From a virus: DNA of 29,922 nucleotides. This document shows positions 15,138 to 29,922 of this stretch, in pieces (the first letter of the stretch is position 1; every line of letters starts with the position of its first letter). The position numbers and the translations under genes are program-made. The notes under the pieces were generated by a model. The model ran no database searches, was not told the origin of the DNA, and saw only the letters and a program-made list of their open reading frames with translations. The stretch covers positions 1 to 29,922 of the IMG/VR virus record IMGVR_UViG_3300012351_000196; one strand, given 5' to 3'.

Positions 15138-15400
15138 CCGATTCCGTTGATCCCGAAGACATTGACCGGTGGACCCGTCACCTCTGGCACGTCTCCCAGC
15201 ATGACAAGATGACCATCGGGCTAGCCGGGCGGCTCCAGCGCATCGTGGATGAGATGCGCGAAACTGCCGGATTGCCAAAGTTCGGATGGAACACAGCCTT
15301 CCCTGACGCGGACTTCGGTGAGTGCTCAGTACACGTCGAAGGCTGCAGAGGACAGGAAACCCACGACCGGGCTACCCGTAACCTGCTTTACGGCCCATGA
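15134..15400 (+). CDS. Small hypothetical protein inserted behind the integrase
   Basis: 88 residues, ATG overlapping the integrase stop (ATGA). A helical start (DPEDIDRWTRHLWHVSQHDKMTIGLAGRLQRIVDEMRE) leads to a His/Cys-containing end (ECSVHVEGCRGQETHDRATRNLLYGP). No family recognised. It lies between the integrase 3' end and the second integrase tail, so it arrived with the present integrase or was inserted there. Confidence 0.55.
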   Translation: MTDSVDPEDIDRWTRHLWHVSQHDKMTIGLAGRLQRIVDEMRETAGLPKFGWNTAFPDADFGECSVHVEGCRGQETHDRATRNLLYGP

Positions 15401-15405
15401 GCAGA

Positions 15406-15720
15406 TCAATAGCCGCGGGCCGGGGCGGACGTGATGGACCGGGTACTCGAAGGGCTGCGCGCGACGGAAGGGAACGGCTGCCACGTTCCGGTTGCGGTCA
15501 CGGTTGCGGTCAGGTAACGACCACTCGGTGAAATCAGAAGGTCAACACGGAGTATTCCCGCTGGCCAGCGTGGCGCGCTCGTGAACTCGGCCCAGAAATC
15601 CACCTCGTCCAGCGTGGCGCCGCTGGCGACGTGAACCGGGTCACTCGTCAGGTCGAAGGTCCACGGCGTGTCATCCACCGGGACCGTGTAGCGGAACATG
15701 CGGCGCGCCCCGTCACCCAT
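15406..15720 (-). CDS. DUF7352-like small protein with altered C-terminus
   Basis: 104 residues from an ATG with GGAAGGGGG upstream. The N-terminal half (MFRYTVPVDDTPWTFDLTSDPVHVASG, then EVDFWAEF) resembles small actinophage proteins of the DUF7352 kind. After GTWQPFPS the sequence is antisense to the integrase remnant (SPSSTRSITSAPARGY), so the original end seems to have been lost at the rearrangement point. It is the last gene of the leftward early operon, and its start overlaps the preceding gene by 8 bases. Function unknown. Confidence 0.55.
   Translation of the reverse strand: MGDGARRMFRYTVPVDDTPWTFDLTSDPVHVASGATLDEVDFWAEFTSAPRWPAGILRVDLLISPSGRYLTATVTATGTWQPFPSVARSPSSTRSITSAPARGY
15413..15517 (+). 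pseudogene. Remnant 3' end of a second, diverged integrase gene
   Basis: In one frame this reads PRAGADVMDRVLEGLR and then a different tail to a TAA at 15515. It matches the integrase C-terminus (PRAGADVMDRVLEGLR-QR). Before the identical 20-base block (15434-15453), all seven codons of PRAGADV differ from the intact gene in the third base but keep the amino acid. So this is the end of a related, diverged integrase gene rather than a fresh duplication. It marks an old recombination or insertion point. Confidence 0.75.
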
Positions 15721-15922
15721 CGCGCGCCCCCTTCCGGCGCCGTTCCCGGAGCCATTCCAGCACCGCGGCGGCACCGCCGACCGCTGCGGACATCACCGCC
15801 AGGCGGCCCGCCCCGGCCAGCCCCGGCGCCCCGGTCGCCGCCCAGAGCACCGACGCGGCGGCGGCCAGGACCAGGACGGCCCGCAGGACGGCGCGGGCGG
15901 CGGCGGCCAGGACGCCGGTCAC
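15713..15922 (-). CDS. Small membrane protein
   Basis: 69 residues, GTG start overlapping the previous stop (GTGA). Two hydrophobic stretches (AVLRAVLVLAAAASVLWAATG and LAVMSAAVGGAAAVLEWL) are followed by a basic tail RERRRKGARDG. Part of the leftward early operon. No family recognised. Confidence 0.5.
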   Translation of the reverse strand: MTGVLAAAARAVLRAVLVLAAAASVLWAATGAPGLAGAGRLAVMSAAVGGAAAVLEWLRERRRKGARDG

Positions 15923-16182
15923 GGCGTCACCTGCCCCGCCGCGCGGATCAAGTCCGCGCACCACGCCCCGGACACGCGCCCGTTCCACTGGCAGGCCCGG
16001 CACCAGAACGCATCCAGCTCGATGGCCAGGTCCGCGATGGCCGGGCACCCCGGGTGGGCGACGCCGGTCTTCGCCTCGCCGGGCTGCGGGTACACCCGGC
16101 CGCCGGGCGGGATGACCAGCTCGCATTCCAGGCCGTGCACTAGGTCGGTGAACACGGTCCGCACCTCGCCCGCCGCGGTCAC
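15919..16182 (-). CDS. Small Cys-rich hypothetical protein (possible zinc site)
   Basis: 87 residues, GTG start overlapping the preceding stop. Contains HPGC and then FWCRACQWNGRVSGAWC, a CxxC plus later Cys that could hold zinc. The pattern of a short N-terminal strand pair and a Cys-rich C-terminus is frequent in actinophage early operons. Function unknown. Confidence 0.6.
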   Translation of the reverse strand: MTAAGEVRTVFTDLVHGLECELVIPPGGRVYPQPGEAKTGVAHPGCPAIADLAIELDAFWCRACQWNGRVSGAWCADLIRAAGQVTP

Positions 16183-16472
16183 GGCGCGCCGCCGTAGCCG
16201 AGCAGCCGGCGGGCCAGCGCCGCGCCGCGCTTCTCCGCCCCCGGCGGCGGCACCGCCCGGCGGAACGGGTCCGCGGCGGCCCGCCGCAGGTCCCACGGGG
16301 AGCCGTCCGGGTCCCGCATCAGGCGCACCGTCTCGGCCAGGGTGCGGTCCCACGTCCACCCGGCGCTCTTGGCGGCGAGCAGGGCGGCGGCGAGGACGTC
16401 GTGGTCCCACGCGGGGCGCACGGCCCTGGCGAGGGCGGCGAGCTCGTCAGGGGCCGCCTGGATCTCGGTCAT
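16179..16472 (-). CDS. Small hypothetical early protein
   Basis: 97 residues, ATG overlapping the preceding stop (ATGA), itself overlapping the next start. Helical, with DELAALARAVRPAWDHDVLAAALLAAKSAGWTWDRTLAETVRLMRDPDGSPWDLRRAA. Proteins with this pattern follow the replication genes in several actinophages, without an assigned role. It may bind DNA or the replication proteins, but this is only suggested by position. Confidence 0.55.
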   Translation of the reverse strand: MTEIQAAPDELAALARAVRPAWDHDVLAAALLAAKSAGWTWDRTLAETVRLMRDPDGSPWDLRRAAADPFRRAVPPPGAEKRGAALARRLLGYGGAP

Positions 16473-16807
16473 GACTCGATGGCCAGCGCGTCGGCATCGC
16501 GCACGATGGCGTAGTGGTGGCACGTGCAGCGGCACCAGCTCCACACGCAGTCACGGCAGTTCCGTCCGCGGCACGCGTCGCTGTGCGGCAGGCTGCCCGC
16601 GTTCTTCCGGTCGACCAGCGTGCGGATGTCTGACGCCGCGATGAACGGGCGCGACCGGGCTACCTCGGCTACGGCGGCGCGGCAGTCGGCTAGGTCCAGA
16701 TCGCCGAGCAGGTCATGCCATGCGTCGGGCGTGTAGCTGTCGATCTTCTGCTGCGGGCAGCAGGCCGCGACGTAGCGGATGAGGATAACGGTCTCCGCCG
16801 GCGTCAT
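16469..16807 (-). CDS. Probable replicative helicase loader-like protein
   Basis: 112 residues, ATG start overlapping the initiator gene's stop. The N-terminal ETVILIRYVAACCPQQKIDSYTPDAWHDLLGDLDLADCRAAVAEVARSRPFIAASDIRTLV matches the small domain common in phage replication organiser and loader proteins coded next to an initiator. A Cys-rich tail (CRGRNCRDCVWSWCRCTCHH) could bind zinc. In phages an initiator-loader pair brings host DnaB helicase to the origin, and an origin is embedded in the gene just upstream. The loader call is inference. Confidence 0.6.
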   Translation of the reverse strand: MTPAETVILIRYVAACCPQQKIDSYTPDAWHDLLGDLDLADCRAAVAEVARSRPFIAASDIRTLVDRKNAGSLPHSDACRGRNCRDCVWSWCRCTCHHYAIVRDADALAIES

Positions 16808-17658
16808 TTCCTGCCTTCTTTCGCAATGGCGCGCTTCATCGCCGCGCCGAATAGCTCGTCCGTTTCCGCCTGGCGGTTATTTCCCGGTTTGCGGCTGGCC
16901 TGCATACGGAGCTGATCGTATTTCTCCCGCAATTTAGGCATTGAGAGGATATTGGAGCGCCAGAATTCGTTGTCCTGGCACCAGTCAATTGCGGCGGTAA
17001 TCTGCTGTTCGGTGCGGCCGTCGCGGTCAATCATCAGCCGGGCGGCGTCGCGCCATTTCTTGCCGACTGCGGGGCGCTTGCAGCCGTTGGCTTCGATGCG
17101 GTCGGCGAGGCGGGCGCAGAGGCGCTCGACGTCAGGCCGCGAGGCGATCGCCGGCACGTCTTTAACCTGTACCTCATCTATACCTGTACTGGTTTTAAAC
17201 ACGTCGGAAATCTCCAGGGGTGCAGATTCTGCGGGGTTTCCCTCTGACCTGCCGTTATGTCTCTCCAGGGGTGCAGATTCTGCGGGGTGCAGATTCTGCG
17301 GGGTGACGCCCAGGGGTGCAGATTCTGCACCCCTACCGGGTGGTAGGGGTGCAGATTCTGCACCCCTACCGGGTGGTAGGGGTGCAGAATCTGCACCCCT
17401 GGGAATGATCACCTCGTAGCCATTGCGGCCGTGGTCGCCAGCCTTCAGGTGCATGGCAAGCTCGCGGTGGCGAACGAGTTCCGCGGTCGCATTCTGTACT
17501 GACCGCTCACTCAGTCGCGTTTTCTGTGACAATTCCAGGACGCTCATAGCGGTAATCCCGTCGCGATTCGCTTCGTGCGCTATAGCCAGCAGGACGATGA
17601 GGGAGCCATTGACAGCGCGTGAATGCTTCCACACCCAGTCGACGGCGTTTTGTGCCAC
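16804..17658 (-). CDS. Phage replication initiator with embedded origin
   Basis: 284 residues. Residues 1-86 form a winged-helix domain (WKHSRAVNGSLIVLLAIAHEANRDG, then SVLELSQKTRLSERSVQNATAELVRHREL), the usual initiator DNA-binding domain. Residues 87-150 are a low-complexity linker with repeated ESAPL, coded by the iteron array. Residues 165-284 form a second domain (KKWRDAARLMIDRDGRTEQQITAAIDWCQDNEFW). The layout, with DNA-binding domain, origin inside the gene and loader gene next, parallels lambda O and P without clear sequence identity. The GTG start is set by frame; its ribosome site (GAGGA) is unusually close. Confidence 0.8.
   Translation of the reverse strand: MAQNAVDWVWKHSRAVNGSLIVLLAIAHEANRDGITAMSVLELSQKTRLSERSVQNATAELVRHRELAMHLKAGDHGRNGYEVIIPRGADSAPLPPGRGAESAPLPPGRGAESAPLGVTPQNLHPAESAPLERHNGRSEGNPAESAPLEISDVFKTSTGIDEVQVKDVPAIASRPDVERLCARLADRIEANGCKRPAVGKKWRDAARLMIDRDGRTEQQITAAIDWCQDNEFWRSNILSMPKLREKYDQLRMQASRKPGNNRQAETDELFGAAMKRAIAKEGRK
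17165..17399. other. Probable replication origin (iterons plus A+T-rich side)
   Basis: Six copies of a palindromic iteron (17217-17399) lie inside the initiator gene. Next to them, 17160-17212 is clearly A+T-richer (runs such as TTTAA, ATCTATA, GGTTTTAAAC) and could be the unwinding site. This stretch also holds two direct copies of ACCTGTAC (17165-17172 and 17182-17189). Iterons beside an A+T-rich stretch within an initiator gene is the plan of lambdoid origins. Confidence 0.7.
17217..17399. repeat. Iteron array, six copies
   Basis: Core GGGGTGCAGATTCTGC at 17217, 17268, 17284, 17313, 17346 and 17379. The last three extend with ACCCC into 21-bp palindromes; the copy at 17379 has the central base swapped (AGAATCT), as expected when a palindrome is read from the other strand. 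These three are spaced exactly 33 bp, about three helical turns, with TACCGGGTGGTA between. Copies 2 and 3 are 16 bp apart. Confidence 0.85.
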
Positions 17659-17759
17659 TCCTCATTCGTCCTGTCTCCTTGGCCGGTCAGTAATTCAGGC
17701 GGCATGCGTTGTGCGCGGCATGCCAGCGCGCCCCCGGCTTCCTTAGTTTTGTCACCGGA

Positions 17760-17900
17760 CTAGGCCCGGAATGGAGGTCGTCCTAGCAAGCCGGGCGGCA
17801 AGCATCTCGACCTCGCCCTGGCGGCCCGGTCCGGCCGGGCAGCATCACGCCTTAGCGCCAGGTGCCGTGCTGTCAGTCCCGTGTCGTCATGCAGTGTCAT
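17760..17900 (-). CDS. Possible 46-residue protein in the gap upstream of the initiator
   Basis: An ATG at 17900, inside the end of the preceding gene, opens 46 codons rich in Arg and Ala (LTARHLALRRDAARPDRAARARSRC) and ends at 17760. It would fit the overlapping style of this operon, but composition alone could produce it. The rest of the gap to the initiator (17659-17759) holds no gene I can support; two copies of GCGGCATGC lie there. Confidence 0.25.
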   Translation of the reverse strand: MTLHDDTGLTARHLALRRDAARPDRAARARSRCLPPGLLGRPPFRA

Positions 17901-18120
17901 CACCCCCGGGCGGCATCCTGCGGCTCATCCCGGCCCGGTACCGTCCGCCTGCCGCCCGGTCCGCCTGCCGCGCGTACCGTCCCGCCGCGCGCCGCCTGGC
18001 CTTGGCCTGTTCGGCCAGGGCCTTCCGCCACGCGGCGCGGGCGTCCTCGCCCCGGTACCCGGCCGGGGCCGCGCTGACCTCAGCCCTGGCCCCGGCCGGC
18101 AGCTCTCTCCGTGTCGTCAT
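17887..18120 (-). CDS. Small basic helical protein
   Basis: 77 residues, ATG one base after the preceding stop. RGEDARAAWRKALAEQAKARRRAAGRYARQADRAAGGRYRAG is a strongly basic helix, suggesting nucleic-acid binding. No family recognised. Part of the leftward early operon. Confidence 0.5.
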   Translation of the reverse strand: MTTRRELPAGARAEVSAAPAGYRGEDARAAWRKALAEQAKARRRAAGRYARQADRAAGGRYRAGMSRRMPPGGDDTA

Positions 18121-18121
18121 G

Positions 18122-18346
18122 TCAGTTGAACCTCTCGATGAACTTCCGCAGCTCGCCGGGCCGCTCGAAGTCGCCGGTCAGCGCGAGCGGAAACATCAGC
18201 TCATCGATGATCCTGGCCGATGACGCGGTGTCCGGGTGCTTGCCCAGGTCCGACCTCAGCGACGCGATGGCGCTGGCCGTCTCGCCCCGGTCGGCGTACT
18301 CCAGGGCGCGTTCCTTGGCCCACGCCAGGTGCTCGGCGCGCGTCAC
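18122..18346 (-). CDS. Small conserved-type actinophage early protein
   Basis: 74 residues, GTG overlapping the preceding stop. TRAEHLAWAKERALEYADRGETASAIASLRSDLGKHPDTASSA, then ELRKFIERFN, is a pattern I recognise from many actinophage early regions, where it is always unassigned. Helical and soluble, perhaps an adaptor or inhibitor. The good match to that pattern makes coding secure even though function is unknown. Confidence 0.7.
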   Translation of the reverse strand: MTRAEHLAWAKERALEYADRGETASAIASLRSDLGKHPDTASSARIIDELMFPLALTGDFERPGELRKFIERFN

Positions 18347-18522
18347 CACAGCACCGCCCCGGCGATGCCGAGCCCGGCCGCCCCGGCCACCCCGATGGCG
18401 AGCTCGGTCCTGGCCACGGCCGTCTTGCCGTCCCTGGCGGCGAACCACGCGGCCGGGATGAGGCCGACGCAGAGCCAGGCGAGGACCCACAGGCAGACGG
18501 CCGCGACGGCGTGCGGTCTCAC
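18343..18522 (-). CDS. Small two-pass membrane protein
   Basis: 59 residues, GTG overlapping the preceding stop. Two hydrophobic segments (AVAAVCLWVLAWLCVGLIPAAWF and LAIGVAGAAGLGIAGAVLW) flank a short charged loop (AARDGKTAVART). No family recognised. Confidence 0.55.
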   Translation of the reverse strand: MRPHAVAAVCLWVLAWLCVGLIPAAWFAARDGKTAVARTELAIGVAGAAGLGIAGAVLW

Positions 18523-18860
18523 TGGCCCTCCAGGCGTTCCATGACGGCCCCGAGCTGGCGGGCGAACTCCTTCTGACCGGCCTCGGTGTCCAGGTCGGCC
18601 CCCTCGATGACGGCGGCGGCCACCTTGCGCAGGCCGGGCGGGACGGGCGTGCCGGGCATGGCCACGGCGATCACCGGCTTGCCGGGCATGATGGCCAGGC
18701 CCAGCCCGGCGGCGAGCTTGATGTCGGGCTTGCCGCCGGGGACCAGGCTCATCACGTACGCCGAGGACTCGATGCCCTTGACGGTGTGCTCGCGGTGGAA
18801 CTGCACGAACCGCTGCCACTCCTCGCGCCCTTCCGGGCCGAGGTCATCTGTCCAGCTCAC
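18519..18860 (-). CDS. Hypothetical early protein, possible nucleoside-deoxyribosyltransferase-like fold
   Basis: 113 residues, GTG overlapping the preceding stop. FVQFHREHTVKGIESSAYVMSLVPGGKPDIKLAAGLGLAIMPGKPVIAVAMPGTPVP alternates strands and helices in a Rossmann-like order. The pattern 'S-A-Y-V-M-S-L-V-P ... A-G-L-G-L-A-I ... K-P-V-I-A-V' recalls small proteins related to nucleoside deoxyribosyltransferases. The usual catalytic Glu is not obvious (GLGLAI where families often have E). Treat the fold as a guess; the gene itself is well supported. Confidence 0.6.
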   Translation of the reverse strand: MSWTDDLGPEGREEWQRFVQFHREHTVKGIESSAYVMSLVPGGKPDIKLAAGLGLAIMPGKPVIAVAMPGTPVPPGLRKVAAAVIEGADLDTEAGQKEFARQLGAVMERLEGQ

Positions 18861-19120
18861 GTGCGGCTCCTCTCGGTGCGGGCGGCGGGGGCCTCCCAGG
18901 CGTCCAGGGCGGCGAGCCAGGCCCGCCGGTCGTAGCCGATGCCCTGGTCGCGGGCGGGCAGGGGCCCGCGCATCCGGCGGGCGTAGCGGCGCCGCGTGAG
19001 GTGGTAGCGGGCGGCGCGGCGCAGGAAGGCGAGCCGCTCCCGGCCGGGCAGCACGCTGGCGGCGTACGCGGCGCAGCCAGCGAGGACGAGGAACGGGGCG
19101 GCCCAGGCGGCGGCGGTCAC
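18857..19120 (-). CDS. Small membrane-anchored basic protein
   Basis: 87 residues, GTG overlapping the preceding stop. One N-terminal membrane segment (AAAWAAPFLVLAGCAAYAASVL) is followed by a basic part (RRAARYHLTRRRYARRMRG) and DRRAWLAALDAWEAPAART. No family recognised. Confidence 0.5.
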   Translation of the reverse strand: MTAAAWAAPFLVLAGCAAYAASVLPGRERLAFLRRAARYHLTRRRYARRMRGPLPARDQGIGYDRRAWLAALDAWEAPAARTERSRT

Positions 19121-19365
19121 GGCGCGCCGTCCGGGGTGCTGGTGATGCCCCTCGCGGCGAGCTTCTCGTTGACGGACCGGATGGCGGCGCGGATGGCGGC
19201 GGCGTGCCGCGCGGTGCCGGCGCCGGCGCCGGCCTGCCAGGCGTTCCACACGGCGTTCCTGAGCGGCGCCGGGACCATGTACCAGTGGCTGCTGCACATG
19301 AGCATGTCCTGGCGGACTTCGCGGGTGCAGGCCGTGGCCGGGCACTCGTGGGTGTAGCCGCTCAC
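19117..19365 (-). CDS. Small zinc-finger-like early protein
   Basis: 82 residues, GTG overlapping the preceding stop. YTHECPATACTREVRQDMLMCSSHWYMVPAPLRNAVWNAW gives C-x4-C ... C-x2-H, a likely zinc site. The pattern with 'MCSSHWYMVPAPLR' followed by a helix (HAAAIRAAIRSVNEKL) is common in actinophages, role unassigned. It may act in DNA or protein binding. Confidence 0.65.
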   Translation of the reverse strand: MSGYTHECPATACTREVRQDMLMCSSHWYMVPAPLRNAVWNAWQAGAGAGTARHAAAIRAAIRSVNEKLAARGITSTPDGAP

Positions 19366-19574
19366 GGCGCGCCGCCCTGCGCGCCCGCTTCCCAGCAGGC
19401 CCTGACGAACAAATGGCCGAACTCCTCGGCCTGGCCCGACTCGAGCTGCCAGACCGGGACGGGGGCGCCCGGGCGGCTGAACGTCACCGTGTTGTAGCTG
19501 ACGCCGACGACGAGCACGTCGCCGTCCATGTCCTCGACGCGGCCGATCTCGCGGGCGCGCGGGTCCTCAGTCAC
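19362..19574 (-). CDS. Small acidic hypothetical protein
   Basis: 70 residues, GTG start overlapping the preceding stop by 8 bases. VEDMDGDVLVVGVSYNTVTFSRPGAPVPVWQLESGQAEEFGHLFVRACWEA reads as a small beta domain with a C-terminal helix. No family recognised; the clear strand pattern supports coding. Confidence 0.55.
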   Translation of the reverse strand: MTEDPRAREIGRVEDMDGDVLVVGVSYNTVTFSRPGAPVPVWQLESGQAEEFGHLFVRACWEAGAQGGAP

Positions 19575-19887
19575 CGCACGTCACCCGGTGCCCGGCCGCG
19601 GCGGTCAGGTACCCGCACCGCCCGCACCGGCTCGCCGCCGTGACGGGGGGGGGCGCGGGCGGATCCGGCTCCGGCACCGCGGCGAGCGCGGCCTGGTACC
19701 GGCCGCGGGCGGCGTCCAGCTCCGCCAGCTCGTCCCCGTCCGGCTGCCGCTCGCGTGCCGCGGTGACCGCGGGCGGCTCTTCCCGGCCGCGGGCGGGGCC
19801 GTAGTACCGGGGCGGCCGGGCGCCGCTGGCCCGGCCCATGGCGGACCGGGCGCCGTCGCGGGCGCTCGCGATGCGCGGGTCAGCCAT
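19567..19887 (-). CDS. Hypothetical protein with Cys motif at the C-terminus
   Basis: 106 residues, ATG overlapping the preceding stop by 8 bases (ATGGCTGA). A basic N-terminus (RIASARDGARSAMGRASG), a charged helix (GDELAELDAARGRYQAALAAVPEP) and a Pro-rich linker precede RCGRCGYLTAAAGHRVTCGD, a CxxC plus H and C that could bind zinc. No family recognised. Confidence 0.55.
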   Translation of the reverse strand: MADPRIASARDGARSAMGRASGARPPRYYGPARGREEPPAVTAARERQPDGDELAELDAARGRYQAALAAVPEPDPPAPPPVTAASRCGRCGYLTAAAGHRVTCGD

Positions 19888-21157
19888 CGCCGTCACCCGC
19901 ATCGCCGTCACCCGCCTCGGGCAGCTGGCCGGTGGCGAGCAGCTCGACGAGGGCGCCCCGGTCGCCGCCGCACCGGTCGAGCAGTCCCCTGATGCGCGCG
20001 GCCTCGTCCTGCGTCAGCTGGTCCGGGGCGGTGAGGTCGTGTCCGGCGAGTTTCTCCAGGGTGCCGAGGCGGTTCTCGTCGCCGACGCCGAGCTGGCCGA
20101 GCCGCCGGCCGAGCATGCTGAGCTGCCCGCTGGTGGCGCGGCCCGGCGGTTTCGGCTCGTCTTCAGGCTGCGGCGGAGGCGGCTGCGCACCCCGGGGAGA
20201 GGCAGCCTGCCCGCGAGCGGCCCTGGGGTCCGTCTGCGTCCGCACCTCGCCGGCGGCGGCCCGGGTCTCGTTCCCGGCGTCGGCACGCCCGGACCCGGGA
20301 AGGGCGTCATCCTCCGCCGCAGGTCCGGAGCGGCCGAGGTCTTCGACATCGACCGGGGTGGCGGTCTTGAGCAGCCTGGCGCGCTGGGCGATGCGGTTCT
20401 GGACGTGGCCGGCCTGGCCGGGGGTGCACAGGCCGTCGCGGGCGGCCTGCGCGGCCTCGACGTGCAGTTTCCGCCCGGCGCCGGTGTCGGTGAAGGTGAG
20501 CGCGGCTTCGAGCGCCTGTTCGTACCAGCCCGGGCCGTCGTCCCCCGGTGCCGGGCTGTCGTCTTCCTCGCGGTCGGCGAAGATGCCCCCGGCGGAGGTG
20601 GCGTCGTTCACGGCGCCGACGATCGCTCTTTTCTGCGCCCGTTTCATCAGCGCGTTCCAGTCCGCCCGGTACTCGCCGCGGTTCTTCCACTTGGTCGGGT
20701 CGGCCACCCTGCCGTCCTTCTTGGCCCACTTGCGCTCGTTGCGTTCGGCCTTTTCCTGGACCTCTTCGGCGGTCTGATGGAATTTGCTCTCGTCGTAGTC
20801 GGCGGTTCCCTCGCAGGTGGCCTTGATGTCGAGGGTGCCGTCGGGGAGGCGCCTGGCGACGGTGCACCTGTAGGTGATGCCGTGCTTGCGCCCGTCGTCG
20901 TCGCGCTCGACTTCGACGCGCTCGCAGGTGTATCCGAGGCCGAACCATTGCAGGAGCTTCTGGGCGCCGGGGCGCCAGAGTGTCTTCTCGCCGTTCGTGC
21001 CCGGGATGACGCCGTAGTCGGTGCCCTCGCGGAGGACTGCCTCGGTGCACCTGCGGACCTGGTCGTCGAGGGCCTTGGCGTTCTCGGGTGTCATGACGAT
21101 CCCGGCCTGGTACTGGCCGATGCCGCCGGGTGGCTGGTAAACGTCAAGGTCGGTCAC
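19880..21157 (-). CDS. Phage DNA-metabolism protein, possibly recombination/annealing-related
   Basis: 425 residues, GTG start with AAGGGG upstream. The first 200 residues (EAVLREGTDYGVIPGT, TLWRPGAQKLLQWFGLGY, ITYRCTVARRLPDGT, DWNALMKRAQKRAIVGAVNDATSAGGIF) match a phage family marked by 'EGTDYGVIPGT...PGAQKL...RAQKRA' that is often placed with recombination and DNA-metabolism genes. The middle is a disordered Pro/Ala/Glu stretch (about 265-345). A C-terminal helical domain (TSGQLSMLGRRLGQLGVGD) resembles a module found on phage recombination proteins. No partner exonuclease was seen. Confidence 0.5.
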   Translation of the reverse strand: MTDLDVYQPPGGIGQYQAGIVMTPENAKALDDQVRRCTEAVLREGTDYGVIPGTNGEKTLWRPGAQKLLQWFGLGYTCERVEVERDDDGRKHGITYRCTVARRLPDGTLDIKATCEGTADYDESKFHQTAEEVQEKAERNERKWAKKDGRVADPTKWKNRGEYRADWNALMKRAQKRAIVGAVNDATSAGGIFADREEDDSPAPGDDGPGWYEQALEAALTFTDTGAGRKLHVEAAQAARDGLCTPGQAGHVQNRIAQRARLLKTATPVDVEDLGRSGPAAEDDALPGSGRADAGNETRAAAGEVRTQTDPRAARGQAASPRGAQPPPPQPEDEPKPPGRATSGQLSMLGRRLGQLGVGDENRLGTLEKLAGHDLTAPDQLTQDEAARIRGLLDRCGGDRGALVELLATGQLPEAGDGDAGDGDG

Positions 21158-23099: not shown

Positions 23100-23105
23100 C
23101 GTGTC

Positions 23106-23636
23106 TCAGGCGGCCGGGTACCCGGTCTTGCCATCGACAGGATTGAGGCAGGCGTAAGCGCCGTAGATTTCCAGGGCGGCGTAGTTGTAGGCGAGTGCCG
23201 CCTCTTCCTCGCTCGTGAACTGGCCGATGTACCGCTGCGTGCCGTCAATGCGGATCATCGCCCGCCATCTGCGATGCCCGGTAACCCAGTGCACGCCCTT
23301 GTACCTGGATGAACCCTTGATGTTTGAGCGCCGATTGTGCTGATTCTGGGCACTTGTTGCGGGCCGCAGGTTCGACCGCTGGTTGTTCAGGCCGTTGTGG
23401 TCCTCGTGATCGGTCCGCGGCCACCCGGTGATGGCGGTGTGCATGAGCATGGTGGTCGGCTTCCCGTCGGCTCGGTACACCCTGGTGATCGCGTACGGTC
23501 CCTTGTTGCGGCGTCCGGGTGCAGATGGATATTCGAATAGCCGCCATTTGCGGCCTTCCACCAGCGGCCAGTCCTCATCGTCAATGAGGGCTGCGCGTCC
23601 GGTCCCCTTCTTGCCGCTCAAGGCGATGGCCATCAT
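23106..23636 (-). CDS. HNH homing endonuclease with AP2 DNA-binding domain
   Basis: 176 residues. Residues 1-95 form an HNH_3-type nuclease (MLMHTAITGWPRTDHEDHNGLNNQRSNL, with H66, H77 and N89). Residues 110-165 form an AP2-type domain (SRYKGVHWVTGHRRWRAMIRIDG, then RYIGQFTSEEEAALAYNYAAL), which would fix it on its target. HNH-AP2 fusions are known phage homing endonucleases. The nuclease half is clearly related to that of the gene at 11120. The start (ATGATG) overlaps the stop of the Cro-like gene, so it rides as the second gene of the early operon. Confidence 0.85.
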   Translation of the reverse strand: MMAIALSGKKGTGRAALIDDEDWPLVEGRKWRLFEYPSAPGRRNKGPYAITRVYRADGKPTTMLMHTAITGWPRTDHEDHNGLNNQRSNLRPATSAQNQHNRRSNIKGSSRYKGVHWVTGHRRWRAMIRIDGTQRYIGQFTSEEEAALAYNYAALEIYGAYACLNPVDGKTGYPAA

Positions 23637-23908: not shown

Positions 23909-23914
23909 GTGGAG

Positions 23915-24037: not shown

Positions 24038-24066
24038 TTGACGGCATCGGCATGCACGGTCAGAGT
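24038..24066 (+). promoter_or_regulatory. Candidate promoter of the CI-like repressor
   Basis: TTGACG (24038-24043), 17 bases, CAGAGT (24061-24066). The -10 keeps the key A and T. The leader to the ATG at 24109 is about 40 bases and includes AAAGGGG. The 24000 area upstream is A+T-richer (TGATATATACG near 23983) and may hold another start. Confidence 0.4.
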
Positions 24067-24108
24067 CAGTACGGGGACGGACTTCTAGGCACAAAGGGGA
24101 CATCGGTC

Positions 24109-24717
24109 ATGGCAGACGGCCGGAAGCAATCCGGGATCAGCGCCCCGCCTGGCGCGTGGAAACTACTCGGCGAGCTGCTGGAGGGCCGCCGTCAGGCTCT
24201 CGGCTACAGGTACCGGACCCAGTTCGAGCGCGAGCGGAAGCTCAACAAGCGGATGCAGGCCGACATCGAGAAGGCATACGAGGCCCGCATCAACACCTTC
24301 CCCGCCGGGACGCTGCGGCACATCGCCGAGGTATACGAGGTCACCTACGAGTCGCTCACCGCGGTCCTGGCCGGGAAGGCGGACGAGCTGGCCCCGGCCG
24401 CCCCGGCCGCGCCCGCCGTCCCGGCCGAGCCGCCCGGGTGGGCGCCGCCGGTGGACGACGCCGGCCGCTACGCCGCCGGGCGCCCCTACGCCGACCGGAT
24501 CTGGGAGCGGCTGCGCGCCCTGGCCGCCGGGGGCGTCACCGGCCCGTCCGGCGACCAGGTCTTCGGGGCCGGCTCTGCCGACGCCAAGGCCTGGGACGCC
24601 GCCGCCGGGCGCCTGGACGACGCCGACCGGGTGTGGCACGTCGCGGACCTCCAGCGCCGCGGCGCCGCCCGCCGCGCCGGCTCCCCGGCCGCCTCCCCGC
24701 GGGCCCGGGGCACGTAA
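24109..24717 (+). CDS. HTH transcriptional regulator, probable phage repressor
   Basis: 202 residues. Residues 10-88 form a helical DNA-binding domain (WKLLGELLEGRRQALGYRYRTQFERERKLNKRMQADIEKAYEARINTFPAGTLRHIAEVYEVTYESLTAVLAGKADEL) of a type seen in actinomycete HTH regulators. Next come an Ala/Pro linker and a C-terminal helical part (YADRIWERLRALAAGG, then WDAAAGRLDDADRVWHVADLQRR). It diverges from the Cro-like gene, the usual position for the lysogeny repressor. No peptidase-type domain is visible, so RecA-driven self-cleavage is not indicated. Confidence 0.65.
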   Translation: MADGRKQSGISAPPGAWKLLGELLEGRRQALGYRYRTQFERERKLNKRMQADIEKAYEARINTFPAGTLRHIAEVYEVTYESLTAVLAGKADELAPAAPAAPAVPAEPPGWAPPVDDAGRYAAGRPYADRIWERLRALAAGGVTGPSGDQVFGAGSADAKAWDAAAGRLDDADRVWHVADLQRRGAARRAGSPAASPRARGT

Positions 24718-24800
24718 CGCAATCGCGCGGCGGGCGGCGCGGGTTTCCCGCAACGGCTTGCGCGGCGCGCGTGAATCACATAGGACAAATACGGGGATTG

Positions 24801-24811
24801 TCACATTGTGA
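24801..24811. promoter_or_regulatory. Small palindrome between the repressor and the next gene
   Basis: TCACATTGTGA (perfect apart from the centre). Just upstream, GACAA (24784-24788) and TTGTC (24798-24802) form another inverted pair. The surrounding 24771-24815 is A+T-richer than its neighbours and may control the gene at 24885. Confidence 0.3.
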
Positions 24812-24884
24812 GACGAGACGCGCCCGCTGCGGAGCGGACGGCCTGGGATCTCCCCGGGCGGGCCTGGCCATGGGAGGGAACGCG

Positions 24885-25130
24885 ATGGCGGCACCTGCGC
24901 GGCGTGGCGCGGCCAGGCCGGGACGGCCCGGCGCCAGGGTGCTGACCGAGGCGGCGCGGGTCTGCGCGGCCGCCGGGCGCCCGGACCTGGCGGCGGAGCT
25001 GCTGCGGCGGCGGTCGTTCGACGAGCAGGTCATCGAGGCCGAGCGGGCGCGCGCGGCGGACGAGGCGCTGGCCGCCGCCGGGCTGCCCGTGCCCCGTCCG
25101 CGCCCCCCGCGGCTGCGCGCGGTGCCCTAG
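24885..25130 (+). CDS. Small hypothetical protein
   Basis: 81 residues, ATG with GGGAGGGAA upstream. A basic N-terminus (AAPARRGAARPGRPGARV) is followed by a helical part (LTEAARVCAAAGRPDLAAELLRRRSFDEQVIEAERARAADEALAAAG) and a Pro/Arg tail. No family recognised. The stop shares CTAG with the convergent gene at 25127. It lies near the join between phage and conjugative genes. Confidence 0.5.
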   Translation: MAAPARRGAARPGRPGARVLTEAARVCAAAGRPDLAAELLRRRSFDEQVIEAERARAADEALAAAGLPVPRPRPPRLRAVP

Positions 25131-25306
25131 GCGGGTAGCCCGGCCAGCTTGGCGAGCAGCTCGTCCTCGTCCCGGCCGTGCGACAGCTCGCCGCCGTCCG
25201 CGGCCGGCCTCCACGCGTAGTGGTTGCCCTCGACGCAGCAGAAGCTGATCTCGGGGTGCGCCCGCGCGTACTCGGCGAGCCGTGCGCTCTGGGCGGTCCC
25301 CTCCAT
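25127..25306 (-). CDS. Small hypothetical protein with leaderless promoter
   Basis: 59 residues (MEGTAQSARLAEYARAHP, then SFCCVEGNHYAWRP, then GRDEDELLAKLAGLPA). No family recognised, but the acidic/basic pattern and the promoter support it. TAGCGT lies exactly 6 bases before the ATG. The stop shares CTAG with the + strand gene. It resembles the antisense moron-like genes in the late region in strand, size and promoter. Confidence 0.55.
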   Translation of the reverse strand: MEGTAQSARLAEYARAHPEISFCCVEGNHYAWRPAADGGELSHGRDEDELLAKLAGLPA

Positions 25307-25312
25307 GCGGGC

Positions 25313-25342
25313 ACGCTACGTGCACATGGAGACGGAGGGCAA
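25313..25342 (-). promoter_or_regulatory. Leaderless promoter of the gene at 25127-25306
   Basis: TTGCCC (25337-25342), 18 bases, TAGCGT (25313-25318), 6 bases, ATG. Same geometry as the promoter at 23915-23944. Confidence 0.5.
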
Positions 25343-25432
25343 GCGGCTCGTCAGGAAAGCGCCCGCACGATCGCGATGAACAGCCGGTCCTTCTGCTGCT
25401 GCTCCCGGGGCAGCAGGCATGGCGCGGCAGAG

Positions 25433-25729
25433 CTAACCATGCGTATATGCGCATATGCACCCCAAGGGCATTGAGGCTGGCGTTTCCGTGTCCTGCCGCT
25501 TGTTGTACTTCGGCTGCTCCGCCCCGATGGCTGCCCTTTCTGCTGCTTCGGCATCGGCCCGGGAGCTGAACCACTCATCGGCCGTTAGCTGCCGCATCTC
25601 ACTCCACCAAGGCTGCATATTCGCATGCTGTTTCCAGCGGGCGCCGAAGTTCTTGCTAACGCCGACGTAGAGCAAGAGGCCCGCTTCACCCCAGACGCGA
25701 TAGAGCACGAATTCCGTAGCCGCCGGCAT
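25433..25729 (-). CDS. GIY-YIG family protein
   Basis: 98 residues, ATG five bases after the Nudix gene's stop, so probably the second gene of its operon. EFVLYRVWGEAGLLLYVGVSKNFGARWKQHANMQPWW holds the two-strand motif (LYR ... LYVGVSKNF, with R of ARWKQH). SSRADAEAAERAAIGAEQPKYNKRQ matches the later Glu and Asn positions, so the full small GIY-YIG domain seems present. It could cut DNA, perhaps in element maintenance or exclusion. Its partner Nudix protein suggests a shared regulatory or immunity job. A 12-bp palindrome lies in the last codons. Confidence 0.75.
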   Translation of the reverse strand: MPAATEFVLYRVWGEAGLLLYVGVSKNFGARWKQHANMQPWWSEMRQLTADEWFSSRADAEAAERAAIGAEQPKYNKRQDTETPASMPLGCICAYTHG

Positions 25730-25734
25730 GGTCT

Positions 25735-26451
25735 TTACGTCTCCCGCTGGAGTTCGTCGAGGTACTGCCGCACCGGCCCGTACATGTCCGGCATTAGGCC
25801 GCGCGTCTCGTCGATGCTGACCCACCGGACCTCTTCCAGGTCCTCTGGGTCGCCGACCTGCGGTTCGCCCGCCGATACGGCGACATGGCAGTACACCATC
25901 ACGCGGCTGGTCTTCGGGTGGATGCGCCTGCCGATGAACTGGAACGACTCGACCGTCAGGCCGCTCTCGGCCTGGACGCGGCGGCGCAGCGCGCCTCCCG
26001 CCGACTCGCCCTCGTGGATGTCGCCGCCCAGGAACGTCCACGGCGGGATGCCGTCCCGCCGCTTGGCAATCAGGACGTGCCGGTCCGGTGACGTGATGAT
26101 GGCGAGCCCGACGTGGGGCTGCTCTGGCAGGGTGGCTGGCTCGGTCACGGGATATCCCTTCTCTCGTGCGCGTGCGATCCTCTGGCTGACCGCCGCCCGG
26201 GTGACGCCCATGAACGCGGCCAGCTCCTCGTGCGTCAGGCCACGCTCGTCGGCCATGTAGGCGGCGAGCCAGTCGCGGAAATCCGCGGTCTCGGTGCGCA
26301 GCTTCTCGACGAGCTTGGCGAGGGCCTTGGCTGATTCCCAGGCCTGAGCCACATCCGGCCACGCCCTGATGGCGCTGGTGGCCCGGTAGAACGACTCGTC
26401 CATGTGCGCTATCTCGCCGTCCGGGGTGGTGCCCTTCACGTAACCCGTCAT
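25735..26451 (-). CDS. HTH-Nudix protein, Pif-like (conjugal immunity) candidate
   Basis: 238 residues, ATG with TGAGG upstream. Residues 65-105 form an HTH (GLTHEELAAFMGVTRAAVSQRIARAREKG). Residues 112-235 form a Nudix domain with the box at 143-164 (GDIHEGE then RRVQAESG). Two acidic positions of the Nudix box are replaced (R158 and A161), so hydrolysis may be weak or lost. In pSAM2 the Nudix protein Pif gives immunity to incoming copies of the element; a gene of this kind beside a transfer operon fits that role. The HTH suggests it may regulate the divergent transfer promoter. Confidence 0.7.
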   Translation of the reverse strand: MTGYVKGTTPDGEIAHMDESFYRATSAIRAWPDVAQAWESAKALAKLVEKLRTETADFRDWLAAYMADERGLTHEELAAFMGVTRAAVSQRIARAREKGYPVTEPATLPEQPHVGLAIITSPDRHVLIAKRRDGIPPWTFLGGDIHEGESAGGALRRRVQAESGLTVESFQFIGRRIHPKTSRVMVYCHVAVSAGEPQVGDPEDLEEVRWVSIDETRGLMPDMYGPVRQYLDELQRET

Positions 26452-26459
26452 GCTGCCTC

Positions 26460-26488
26460 AGCATAAGGTAGCAGGTCTCTTGCGTCCA
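26460..26488 (-). promoter_or_regulatory. Promoter of the Nudix/GIY-YIG operon
   Basis: TGGACG (26483-26488), 17 bases, TATGCT (26460-26465), 8 bases to the ATG. Its -35 overlaps the -35 of the divergent transfer promoter. Confidence 0.45.
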
Positions 26489-26508
26489 TGTTAGACATGG
26501 GTTACGTT
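26480..26508 (+). promoter_or_regulatory. Promoter of the transfer operon
   Basis: TTGCGT (26480-26485), 17 bases, TACGTT (26503-26508), then 7 bases to an ATG at 26516. Leaderless arrangement. The palindrome CCATGTTAGACATGG (26486-26500) fills its spacer. Confidence 0.55.
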
Positions 26509-26515
26509 GGTCGGC

Positions 26516-26627
26516 ATGACCACTGCGGACGACCAGACGGCCCACCCCGCACGCGAAAGCGGGCCCGGTGCTGCGAACACCGGACCCGCCCTCACCGTCA
26601 GTTCCATTCCCCATGGAAGGCCATGCA
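26516..26627 (+). promoter_or_regulatory. Leader of the transfer operon with strong hairpin
   Basis: Translation from the ATG at 26516 would read MTTADDQTAHPARESGPGAANTGP and on into a frame open to 26827 that overlaps the next gene. Beyond about 40 codons it looks like an out-of-frame reading. Inside lies a 12-bp stem with one mismatch, GCGGGCCCGGTG (26559-26570) and CACCGGACCCGC (26577-26588 region), loop CTGCGAA, without a T-run. It may be a leader peptide with attenuator-like control. Confidence 0.4.
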
Positions 26628-26762
26628 ATGCCCAACGTACCACCGCCCGCCGACATCACCGCCGGCCCGCTGCCGCCGCCGAACATCACCCCGCTGTTCA
26701 CCGAGCTGCTCGAGCTGGCCGCCGCCGAGCGGGGCCTGCCGCCGGAGCCCTGGACCGCGTGA
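26628..26762 (+). CDS. Small protein at the start of the transfer operon
   Basis: 44 residues, ATG with GGAAGG upstream. MPNVPPPADITAGPLPPPNITPLFTELLELAAAERGLPPEPWTA is a Pro-rich start with one helix. Small proteins of this size open transfer operons of actinomycete elements. Function unknown. Confidence 0.5.
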   Translation: MPNVPPPADITAGPLPPPNITPLFTELLELAAAERGLPPEPWTA

Positions 26763-26823
26763 CCGTCCCGGCGGCGGCGCCCTTCCCCTGCGCCGCCGCC
26801 CGCAGCCCCGCAGGGAGCACCGC

Positions 26824-27042
26824 ATGAGCACGGCCGGCCTCATCGACTGGATCCGCGGCCTGATCGCCCCGCTGTTCGTCGGCGGCACCGGGATCATCGC
26901 GGTGTTCTTCCTGTTCACCCGCGAGATCACCCGGTTCGCCCAGTTCCTGGTCCTGGCGGTGGCCGTCGCCATCGTGTTCTACACCCCCGGCATCGTCGAG
27001 GTCACCGCGAAGGCCATCACCGCCGCGCTCGGGGTGCGCTGA
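26824..27042 (+). CDS. Small two-pass membrane protein of the transfer operon
   Basis: 72 residues, ATG with GGGAG upstream. A short start (STAGLIDWIRGLIAP) is followed by two membrane segments (LFVGGTGIIAVFFLFT and FAQFLVLAVAVAIVFYTPGIV), a layout similar to pilin-like or pore-like small proteins of conjugation systems. It overlaps the next start by one base. A structural transfer role is inferred. Confidence 0.6.
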   Translation: MSTAGLIDWIRGLIAPLFVGGTGIIAVFFLFTREITRFAQFLVLAVAVAIVFYTPGIVEVTAKAITAALGVR

Positions 27043-27254
27043 TGTGGCCCGCCGTGGCCGGCCTGGCCGCCGCCGCCGCGGTGCTCGCCGTCCCGTTCGC
27101 CTCCCGCCGCCTGCGGCCCGGCCGTCACCCTGCGGCGGCCGGGCCCCGGGCCACCCCGGCCGGCGCGGGGGCCCGCCCGGAGCCGCGGCCGCGCGGCGAG
27201 GTCACCGGGCCGTTCGGCTACGACAACGGCGTGATGACCGGGGACGCGCCGTGA
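27042..27254 (+). CDS. Small membrane-anchored protein of the transfer operon
   Basis: 70 residues. An N-terminal membrane segment (AVAGLAAAAAVLAVPFA) is followed by a basic Pro/Ala-rich part and EVTGPFGYDNGVMTGDAP. Start and stop both overlap neighbours. No family recognised; possibly an Spd-like spread protein. Confidence 0.5.
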   Translation: MWPAVAGLAAAAAVLAVPFASRRLRPGRHPAAAGPRATPAGAGARPEPRPRGEVTGPFGYDNGVMTGDAP

Positions 27255-27526
27255 CCGGCTGGCGGTCCCTCGCCGCGTGCGCCGGGCAGCCGGGCCTGTT
27301 CTTCGGCCCCGGTGACACCGAGCAGTGGCGGGCGCACCGCCGCCGCGAGGCCCGCGCTAAGGCAGTCTGTGCCGGCTGTCCCGTCCGGCAGCAGTGCCTG
27401 GGGTTCGCCGTCGCGTCCGGGGAGCGGTCCGGGATCTGGGGCGGCCTGGGCGAGGACGAGCTGCGGGCCCTGCAGCGCGGCGCGTGGCACAGCAGCGCGG
27501 GCGGCCCGCGGCGGAGGGCGGCGTGA
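27251..27526 (+). CDS. WhiB-family regulator
   Basis: 91 residues, GTG overlapping the preceding stop. The four Fe-S cysteines are present: C10, then C40-A-G-C43-P-V-R-Q-Q-C49 (Cx2Cx5C). The GIWGG turn (residues 61-65) and a basic C-terminus for DNA binding follow. WhiB proteins carry a redox-sensitive 4Fe-4S cluster and usually work with the housekeeping sigma factor. Being inside the transfer operon, it may link transfer to cell state. WhiB genes are also known in actinophages. Confidence 0.88.
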   Translation: MTGWRSLAACAGQPGLFFGPGDTEQWRAHRRREARAKAVCAGCPVRQQCLGFAVASGERSGIWGGLGEDELRALQRGAWHSSAGGPRRRAA

Positions 27527-27990
27527 TGGGCGGGATCGGCTACTGGCTCGGCGGCGGCGAGGCCCTGATCGCGGCGGGCCTGGGCTGGCTGGTGCTGCGC
27601 CACTACTCCAGGCTGCCCGCGCGTACCCACCCGTGGATTCACCGCGGCGTGATCCTGCTCATGTACGCGGCGGGCACGGTGCTGGCCGTGTCCACAGTCG
27701 GCCTGTGGGCCGAGCGGACCGTCGAGCGTCTCGGCGGCATGGCAGTGGGCGGGACCGGCCCGGGCGGCGGGATCGGCTGGGCGCTGGTCACGGTCGGCGG
27801 CCTGGCCCTGATCGCTGCCCTGCTCGTCGCCCTGATCTGGGCACCCGATCCGGCATATGCGTACGTGGCGCTGGCCGCCCCGCTGGTGCTGGCGCTGGCC
27901 GCGGGCGGGGCCGCCAGCCAGTTCTACGCCGTGACCAGCGCGCCGGCGCACCAGCTGGTGTCGCAGGTCGCCGTGTGGGCGGGGGGATGA
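27526..27990 (+). CDS. Four-pass membrane protein, Spd-like
   Basis: 154 residues, ATG overlapping the WhiB stop by one base. Four hydrophobic segments are seen: GGEALIAAGLGWLVLRHY, GVILLMYAAGTVLAVSTVGLW, IGWALVTVGGLALIAALLVALIW and YVALAAPLVLALAAGGAAS. Such integral proteins precede the FtsK/TraB gene in many AICEs and multicellular-host plasmids and are linked to spread of the element along mycelium. The label is by topology and position. Confidence 0.6.
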   Translation: MGGIGYWLGGGEALIAAGLGWLVLRHYSRLPARTHPWIHRGVILLMYAAGTVLAVSTVGLWAERTVERLGGMAVGGTGPGGGIGWALVTVGGLALIAALLVALIWAPDPAYAYVALAAPLVLALAAGGAASQFYAVTSAPAHQLVSQVAVWAGG

Positions 27991-27991
27991 C

Positions 27992-28855
27992 ATGGGGCAG
28001 GCGATCGTGGTGCTGGCCGTGGTGCTGTTCGGCGGCGGGTTCCTCGCCCGCTCCGTCTCGCAGGCCCGCGGCAGCGCCTGGGCCGGGCCGCGCACGGCCG
28101 GGATGCGGCAGCGCGCTGCCGTCCGCGGCGGCCCGCCTGGCCAGCGGCCGGTCCGGCACGAGATACGGCTCCGCCAGGCGGACGCCTGGCTCAGGGACTG
28201 GCTGGCCGAGCGCGACTACGCCCGCAAGAACGGCGGCGGCGGCGGGCCATCCGCCCGCCCGCCCGCTGTGCCGCGCCGCGCCCGGGCCGCCGCGACTGCG
28301 GTCAGGCGCCCCGGGCAGCCTCCGGCCGCCGGGGGCAATGGCAGCGGGCCCGCTGCCGCCCGGCCGCGATCCGTCCCCAGCGGAGGAACCATGAGAATCC
28401 CCGAGCCCACCGGCCATGACGGAAACAGCTGGACCTTTGATCCCGCCGAGACGAAGCGGTACAGCGAATGGATTAACGGAGGAATCCCAGTGGCAGCAGG
28501 AACGAGTACCGGCGGCGTCGAGCAGCTCGCCGACGGCATCAGCCAGATCCACGCCGGGGCCGCCGCCGGCAACATCCACGCCAAGCGGGCGGCGATCGCC
28601 GCGTCCAATGAGGCGTGCGAGCGGTTCGCGCAGATGGCGGGCATGCTGTCCCGCAACATGGCTGAGGACAACTACGGCCCGGAGATCACCGAGCCGCTCG
28701 CCAGGGCATCCCAGCACCTGCAGGCCGCCGCGATGACGTTCGGCGAGGGCGGCAGCGCCCTGATGACCTTGATGGCCATGAGCGTCGGCGAGCTGGCGCA
28801 GTCCCCGCGGCAGGCCCCGCATCACGCCGAGCTGTCCGAGAACGGCAGCCGCTGA
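27992..28855 (+). CDS. Transfer operon protein, membrane anchor plus helical C-terminal domain
   Basis: 287 residues. An N-terminal membrane segment (AIVVLAVVLFGGGFLAR) leads to a basic helix (RLRQADAWLRDWLAERDYARK), a long Pro/Arg/Ala linker (about 80-135), and a helical C-terminal domain (GVEQLADGISQIHAGAAAGNIHAKRAAIAASNEACERFAQMAG, then QHLQAAAMTFGEGGSALMTLMAMSVGELAQSPRQAPHH). The ending resembles proteins coded just before FtsK/TraB genes in actinomycete elements. An internal ATG at 28391 after GGAGGAACC might give a shorter product without the anchor. Confidence 0.55.
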   Translation: MGQAIVVLAVVLFGGGFLARSVSQARGSAWAGPRTAGMRQRAAVRGGPPGQRPVRHEIRLRQADAWLRDWLAERDYARKNGGGGGPSARPPAVPRRARAAATAVRRPGQPPAAGGNGSGPAAARPRSVPSGGTMRIPEPTGHDGNSWTFDPAETKRYSEWINGGIPVAAGTSTGGVEQLADGISQIHAGAAAGNIHAKRAAIAASNEACERFAQMAGMLSRNMAEDNYGPEITEPLARASQHLQAAAMTFGEGGSALMTLMAMSVGELAQSPRQAPHHAELSENGSR

Positions 28856-29922
28856 TGCCCGGCAAGGATCTCGTCCCGCTGCCGTCCCGCCAGCCCGTCC
28901 CGGCCCGGGTGCCCCCGTGGCAGCAGCCGGAGCGGGAATCGGAGGCGGCTTACCGGACGATCGGCAGGTGGCTGCGCCGCAACCGGCACGTCACGGTCCC
29001 GCTGGCGGTCCCGCTGGCCCTGTGGCCGGCCGGCGCGGCGCTGCACCGCGTCGGCGCCGCCGTCATCACCGGGATCGCCGGCCTGGTCCTGGCCGCGGCC
29101 GTGTGGTTCTTCGCGCCGTCCAAGTGGGGCCGCCCGGCCGAGCGGGCCTACGCCCGGCTGTCCGCCGCCGCGGCCGCCGGGTGGCTGTGGCTCGCCGCGC
29201 TCCTCGGCCCCGCCGCCGGGATGGCCGGCCTGGTCCTGGCCGGGCTGCTGTGCGCCCTGGCCGTCGCGTGGGGCATCCCGTGGTGGCGGCACAAGCGGCC
29301 CCGCGGCCGCCGCGGCCGGCAGCGCAGGACCGCCCGGTGGGACGCCTGGTGGCAGTCCTACTGCTGGGACTGGCAGCTCGGCGGGTCCCGCGTCATCGCC
29401 GTGTGGGAGACCGAGATCACCGCCCGCCTGCACGTCCAGGGCGTCCCGGGCCGCCACTCCCCCGGGTACGTCGACCGGATCATCAGCCTCATCCCGTCCG
29501 CGCTGGCCGGCATGTTCCCGCCGGGCAGCGTCCGCCACTTCCCCGACGAGAAGGACGGCTCCCGGTTCTTCCTGGAGTTCCGCAAGGCCAGCCCGCTCGC
29601 TGAGCCAGTCGCCTACGACCTGGCCCTGGCCCCGCGGTCGGTGAGCGACCTCGCGGTGCTCGGCAAGACGGAAACGGGGCAATGGCGGACCGGCACGCTG
29701 CTGAAGTCGGCGTTCGTCGGCGGGCAGACCGGCAGCGGGAAGAGCAACTACCTGTCCGTCGAGGCAGCGAACCTGTCCGGCTGCATGGATGACTGGCAGA
29801 TCCTCATCGACCTCAAGGGCGGCCGGTCCGCCCGCCCGCTGCTGCCCGGCGTCGATTACCCGGTGATCACCCTGGACGAGGCCCGCCAGGTGCTGCAGAT
29901 GCTCGCCGACGAGATCACCGAG
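28855..29922 (+). CDS. FtsK/SpoIIIE (TraB/TraSA-type) DNA translocase, 3' end outside window
   Basis: 356 codons are visible, open to the window end; the ATG overlaps the preceding stop. A short start is followed by about four hydrophobic segments (residues 45-150), a soluble part (WDWQLGGSRVIAVWETEITARLHVQG, PGYVDRIISLIPSALAGMFPPGS), then Walker A GQTGSGKS at 290-297 and DDWQILIDLKGG. TraB-type proteins move double-stranded DNA between mycelial cells as a single-protein conjugation pump. Length and position match AICE translocases rather than cell-division FtsK. Rep, xis and int of the element would be expected further right. Confidence 0.85.
   Translation, partial: MPGKDLVPLPSRQPVPARVPPWQQPERESEAAYRTIGRWLRRNRHVTVPLAVPLALWPAGAALHRVGAAVITGIAGLVLAAAVWFFAPSKWGRPAERAYARLSAAAAAGWLWLAALLGPAAGMAGLVLAGLLCALAVAWGIPWWRHKRPRGRRGRQRRTARWDAWWQSYCWDWQLGGSRVIAVWETEITARLHVQGVPGRHSPGYVDRIISLIPSALAGMFPPGSVRHFPDEKDGSRFFLEFRKASPLAEPVAYDLALAPRSVSDLAVLGKTETGQWRTGTLLKSAFVGGQTGSGKSNYLSVEAANLSGCMDDWQILIDLKGGRSARPLLPGVDYPVITLDEARQVLQMLADEITE

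Follow-up and report, generated by a model that had tools for sequence, protein, structure and literature searches.

Can a phage genome and a conjugation system of the kind carried by actinomycete integrative and conjugative elements (AICEs) form a single element, or do the two lie side by side as separate entities? The question is raised by IMG/VR record IMGVR_UViG_3300012351_000196, a linear fragment whose complete 29,922 bases are referred to here as the window. A first-pass annotation had seen in it phage genes followed by a Pif-like Nudix gene, WhiB and FtsK/TraB, an order with which our profile matches agree; the full transfer operon that it announced is present as to the Nudix gene, WhiB, the membrane genes and FtsK/TraB, but is cut inside traB by the contig end. 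Here we report that the window is part of the closed circular genome of a temperate siphophage, and we propose from sequence comparisons that this phage quite probably has an AICE-class transfer module for moving its double-stranded DNA (dsDNA) between cells.

One circular phage replicon

Overlapping contigs carry the window beyond both of its ends. A search with the partial FtsK retrieved IMGVR_UViG_3300012359_000039 (G001, 35,095 bp), which shares 25,050 bp with window positions 4,874-29,922 (two gaps, zero mismatches) and continues 10,046 bp rightward beyond the window end. IMGVR_UViG_3300012351_000032 (G002, 20,897 bp), retrieved with the full-length FtsK-like protein, overlaps this extension over 9,173 bp with 1 mismatch, and its right end is window 1-123. 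The join at circle position 51,569/window base 1 is crossed by 3300012209_000028 and 3300012359_000147 (99.96-100%). Together the window and these four contigs, the circle-closing ones coming from at least two other metagenomes, give a closed circle of 51,569 bp with 71.6% G+C. We number it by continuing the window numbering rightward, 1-29,922 being the window.

To the right of traB lie an endonuclease VII-like gene, a gene for a DUF2637 membrane protein and many small open reading frames (ORFs), after which phage genes resume (HNH, terminase, portal, protease-capsid fusion, structural genes) and reach window base 1. No chromosomal or host genes were found across the 51.6-kb circle, and no second integrase, own xis, AICE rep or att sites were found on it right of traB. 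The joint at 24.7-26.4 kb consists of small ORFs, a GIY-YIG endonuclease gene and the Nudix gene, with no tRNA and no chromosomal-looking gene. Since terminase, portal and capsid genes fill the stretch by which the circle is completed, it is one temperate siphophage and a single replicon rather than a prophage with an AICE for neighbour; its tail and lysis genes are on the same circle.

The first-pass annotation had left the choice between a phage or phage-plasmid with a TraB-type system and an AICE next to a prophage, and had suggested extending the contig both ways. The extension returned terminase, portal and further phage genes with circular overlap, which bears out the former, while the latter is contradicted by the closed circle and by the lack of separate AICE genes right of traB. 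An att pair, chromosomal genes and a separate complete AICE, which the annotation had named as signs against a single element, all came out negative. Metagenome contigs can be chimeric, and a chimeric assembly, like an AICE lying next to a prophage in a chromosome, would also bring such genes together; however, independent contigs from different metagenomes agree at every junction at 99.96-100% and close the circle, and there are no host genes in 51.6 kb. We give either of these explanations next to no credence.

A TraB-class protein and the locus 3' of its gene

The complete FtsK-like protein, read from G001, has 712 residues and is assigned by PHROGs as FtsK/SpoIIIE-like. A profile built from the Tra proteins of AICE-type loci in Streptosporangiaceae genomes (the AICE-Tra profile) matches it with E 1.5e-52 over residues 28-493, with a second match at 622-676, against E 0.016 for a host FtsK profile. 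On this comparison the protein is of the TraB class, nearer to Tra than to cell-division FtsK. Its domain order is N-terminal membrane segments, an FtsK-type motor and a C-terminal winged helix, the last resting on a weak Pfam match of that type (HTH_IclR, E 5e-4, residues 632-670). Placement in a Tra/FtsK tree was tried; the phage branches were very long and the backbone was open, so we claim no position and use the profile scores instead.

Matches at E<=1e-5 were found in 76 of 201 genomes from the family of a Streptosporangiaceae metagenome-assembled genome (MAG), and identity to Streptosporangiaceae Tra proteins is 30-35% over residues ~25-500 (best 33-35% over 25-496). Among 50,697 phage records the only matches were ZL12, one Halomonas phage and one Virgibacillus phage. 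The bacterial neighbourhoods L148, L150, L151 and L153 run from a divergent Nudix gene, next to which stands a regulator gene, through small membrane genes and tra to genes for an excisionase-like protein and an integrase; divergent Nudix genes occur in four of the five AICE-type neighbourhoods examined, the fifth (L152) being less complete. By gene content, then, the nearest Tra relatives with readable neighbourhoods belong to AICE-like elements, and the AICE-type label given to the module in the first-pass annotation holds, a 3' cis element being common to both as well. The host is probably a filamentous actinobacterium in or near Streptosporangiaceae, to judge by the Tra relatives and by DUF2637 matches in two actinobacterial MAGs, one of them Streptosporangiaceae.

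The cis-acting locus of transfer (clt) of pWTY27 covers the tra 3' end plus the following bases (PMC12857230), and TraB of pSVH1 works via repeated 8-bp motifs (PMC3583192); for pSAM2 no clt has been described, according to a 2022 AICE paper (PMC9513070). In the phage, a clt-like locus of 135 bp (30,993-31,127) begins at the last base of the traB stop codon. It holds two palindromes and, in a both-strand 8-mer scan, three direct copies and one inverted copy of TGGAGGAT, four of the five in the genome; in 30 shuffles no 8-mer with at least three A/T reached four copies within 160 bp. On its minus strand stands CGCCTGCGCGTAG at 31,046 (G001, locus L008 about 8915-8935), the sole match in the 51.6-kb genome of a 13-bp core, CGYCTGCRCGTAR. 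A longer pattern appeared in 0 of 200 shuffles of L008.

Of 19 AICE-type loci from Streptosporangiaceae, 15 have the shorter core CGYCTGCRC at 26-48 bp behind the stop codon of tra, where about 0.02 per locus are expected; loci listed with CGYCTGCRC(GTAR) are L148, L150, L151, L153, L161, L162, L138, L143-L146 and L180. The repeats that flank it differ from element to element. The motif was picked after inspection of a first set of loci, and a second sample is the fairer test: there the core was present within 125 bp in four of the six closer loci with readable 3' flanks (L173, L177-L179; L173 already belonged to the first sample), likewise at L180 with its 29%-identical Tra, and at none of 22 more distant Tra genes. 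Repeats of 7-mers 3' of tra are unusual in only some elements (1-4% of windows: window phage, G095, L162, L137) and ordinary in many others, which makes the shared core the stronger argument. We regard it as a candidate clt core. A scan of the viral collection for core plus GC stretch proved too degenerate: among the matches listed, two of 80 loci had a Tra-like ORF, and the stronger of these was not adjacent to the motif.

Related phages, known systems and the gene map

A divergent relative of 59,944 bp (G019) shares with the window phage the early genes (marker 62-63% identical), WhiB, DUF2637 (about 55%) and right-arm genes; its terminase, portal and capsid are more distant matches. Its WhiB lies upstream of a TraB-like gene. 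The product of this gene, which stands between WhiB and DUF2637, has 715 aa and is hit by the AICE-Tra profile (E 1e-15) but not by that of FtsK, and the slot is flanked by homologous genes. Because a TraB-like gene is kept in the same slot in a relative whose DUF2637 is only about 55% identical, the module is, on this comparison, not a recent insertion and the arrangement is old. The AICE-like gene order and the compactness of the module, which occupies 25.4-31.5 kb between early and packaging genes, could also be those of an AICE, or a piece of one, recently inserted as a passenger in an ordinary phage. Against this, no AICE int, xis, rep gene or flanking repeats were found, and G019 has WhiB, the TraB-like gene and DUF2637 between homologous flanks; we therefore consider such an insertion highly improbable.

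In three more viral records (G033, G032, G031) DUF2637 is paired with TraB-class genes. One of them, IMGVR_UViG_3300047089_000043 (G033, 96 kb), has terminase, portal and a plasmid_TraB match (E 8e-70) next to DUF2637 (positions of interest 1255-2904 and 65153-67288); the stretch of it that was read has 52.5% G+C, and the terminase match includes one TAA codon. The TraB slot of G025 (68.9 kb) holds a different FtsK-type ATPase, and G029 (99.9 kb; L119 5454-7589) combines a DUF2637 gene with an FtsK-type gene near host cell-division FtsK (E 1e-120), not of the TraB class. Upstream of the FtsK-type gene in G019 (9196-10585) and G029 (L119, 231-1628), a DUF5753 XRE regulator and a DUF6879-type gene replace Nudix, the DUF6879 match having been checked in G019 only. 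Judged by these gene orders, the module seems well established in some actinophages.

The same comparisons bear on the main alternative, that a TraB-class pump has been co-opted for a job inside one mycelium (septal DNA movement or segregation, genome resolution or positioning, or lysogeny support) with no cell-to-cell transfer. Other phages carry FtsK-type genes without conjugation genes, as the match of G029 to cell-division FtsK illustrates, related phages fill the slot with different FtsK-type ATPases (G025), and Spd-type spreading inside the mycelium is known biology (PMC12857230). By its profile scores, however, the window-phage protein goes with AICE Tra and not with FtsK; a cis locus like that of AICEs is retained 3' of its gene, and a Nudix gene occupies the Pif position. 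We judge a function confined to the mycelium to be unlikely, and retain transfer of phage DNA between cells as the preferred reading.

Phages with plasmid functions are known in Streptomyces, as the first-pass annotation noted. According to PMC3583192, which cites Zhong et al. 2010 (J Bacteriol 192:3747), pZL12 is a plasmid-phage whose conjugal transfer reportedly depends on a tra gene and two neighbours, which makes it a precedent for a single element with both virion and conjugative spread. Both pZL12 (phage ZL12) and the window phage carry an FtsK/SpoIIIE-like gene in a phage genome, gp071 in the case of ZL12. The former is larger (90.4 kb versus 51.6 kb), and gp071, near mycobacteriophage-type structural genes, is about 24% identical over 41% of the window-phage protein; unlike pZL12, the window phage has a tyrosine integrase, an O-like initiator, an AICE-class TraB and a 3' clt-like locus.

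With AICEs of the pSAM2 type (PMC3218068) the phage shares a TraB-class dsDNA pump, a divergent Pif-like Nudix gene, small membrane genes and a tyrosine integrase, and with Streptosporangiaceae AICE-type elements the cis locus 3' of tra. An AICE would be expected to have Tra plus a tyrosine or serine integrase, and the phage has Tra and a tyrosine integrase. Unlike in AICEs, the integrase gene lies about 14 kb off beside the lysis genes, and there is a complete phage morphogenesis and lysis set. No AICE Rep (RepSA, RepAM, Prim-Pol) was found in the larger circle proteins that were scanned, some small ORFs having been left unscanned; the initiator is O-like. The protease-capsid fusion is 34-39% identical over 57-58% to those of Rhodococcus phages REQ1 and Madraxi and Mycobacterium phage Brujita, and siphophages of this type have, as here, an integrase gene placed centrally among the virion genes; no match to the window-phage TraB was found in these three. 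With pZL12 on record, a phage combined with conjugation is no new category. Novelty lies in three things: a phage lineage that bears an integrase, a pump of the AICE class with a clt-like locus of its own, and the core found 3' of tra in phage and AICE-type loci alike.

The features of the circle are collected in the table. Minus-strand early genes reach about 23.9 kb. Within the O-like gene, an iteron-like array (17211-17403) with five direct GGGGTGCAGATTCTGC copies and near-perfect palindromes is, from its layout, a probable replication origin; in lambda the origin likewise lies inside O. No ParA was noticed on the circle, which has an integrase, the origin-like array and a closed assembled form.

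Several smaller features were seen along the phage genes. Window 15412-15457 repeats, at 85%, the final 46 bp of the integrase coding sequence at a distance of 332 bp downstream; it is perhaps what is left of a further int gene, or it belongs to an att region. The HNH/AP2-type genes at window 11121-11870 and 23106-23636 resemble one another, and a Dam-type methyltransferase gene lies at window 12228-12779. At circle 39,968-39,975, between HNH and the terminase region, G001 and G004 (one sample) end on either side of TGAC/TCCGCA/GTCA, through which other contigs read; this is a possible cos site.

Table. Genes of the window phage in circle numbering (1-29,922 = window)
Feature	Position	Strand	Match or remark
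Head-tail adaptor	109-639	+	phrog_442 E 4e-15; start of tail module, rejoins portal-capsid side
Tail protein	1988-3085		
Tape measure/transglycosylase-domain tail protein	4265-6868	+	phrog_12661 E 7e-18
Endolysin, Rv2525c-like glycoside hydrolase	about 10059-11123	+	phrog_13480 E 4e-18; PF08924 E 4e-24
Tyrosine integrase	13884-15137	+	phrog_1 E 1.6e-50; PF00589 E 5e-19
Lambda O-like replication initiator	16804-17658	-	phrog_391 E 1e-34, residues 1-266
Early protein marking phage lineage	19880-21157	-	62-63% identical to G019 counterpart
HNH	23106-23636	-	early gene
GIY-YIG endonuclease	25433-25729		
Nudix hydrolase, N-terminal HTH	25735-26451	-	Pfam NUDIX E 4e-18; divergent from transfer operon, Pif-like position
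72-aa protein, two membrane segments	26824-27042	+	Spd-like by position
70-aa protein, one hydrophobic segment	27042-27254	+	
WhiB-type regulator	27251-27526	+	PF02467 E 1e-18
154-aa protein, three membrane segments	27526-27990	+	
287-aa protein, one N-terminal membrane segment	27992-28855	+	overlaps traB start
traB, first 356/712 codons	28855-29922	+	two TM (transmembrane) segments, Walker A GGQTGSGKS; gene ends at 30,993 on G001
HNH gene	39,463-39,792		
Terminase (TerL)	40,354-41,781		
Portal	42,558-43,895		
Head maturation protease + major capsid protein fusion, 877 aa	43,892-46,525		

Proposed spread as virions and between hyphae

How might such a phage spread? We propose that its DNA would also be present in the cell as a circle, and that, if the module is expressed, TraB hexamers would bind the 8-bp repeats of the clt-like locus, which lies 3' of traB as part of the module together with the endonuclease VII-like and DUF2637 genes, through the C-terminal winged-helix domain. 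TraB could then pump double-stranded phage DNA through hyphal membranes to an adjacent cell or compartment. Inside the mycelium its spread would be aided by the membrane proteins, and redundant transfer would be limited by the Nudix protein. The virion genes would provide a second route, so that the element may spread both by virions and by conjugation. A fuller version of this proposal, which we advance only tentatively, is that a lineage of integrating temperate phages in filamentous actinobacteria has retained functional AICE-type dsDNA conjugation, with a clt of its own, and spreads as virions and from hypha to hypha, the core CGYCTGCRCGTAR with element-specific flanking repeats being a shared, so far undescribed part of clt in phage and AICEs.

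Several observations weigh against the proposed transfer between cells. The sole NCBIfam match of the 712-aa protein, plasmid_TraB (E 7e-8), misses the equivalog cut-off, with 31 of 800 bits (no phage or control genome searched passed that cut-off), and identity to its relatives is only 30-35%; by these scores we place it in the TraB class as a divergent member and do not regard it as an equivalog of the plasmid_TraB model. An AlphaFold model of it (mean pLDDT 40) was too poor and was not used. The core is inverted relative to traB in the phage compared with AICEs, two of the four TGGAGGAT copies at the locus coincide with the start of the following gene or adjoin it and resemble ribosome-binding sites, and the exact core is missing from the relative G019. 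As to integration, no tRNA-like attP site was found in the phage, and a DNA search of 201 host-family genomes gave no prophage-chromosome junction, returning chance-level short GC-rich or integrase-end matches.

Gene transfer by phages and gene transfer by conjugative elements are commonly seen as two distinct routes. TraB systems work without a relaxase and without a type IV secretion apparatus, and surveys for those parts would therefore miss a conjugative phage of this kind. If the module works as proposed, the phage could pass through a mycelium with no need of lysis and, in the manner of TraB systems, could also mobilise host DNA, and the core shared 3' of tra offers a testable clt for AICEs.

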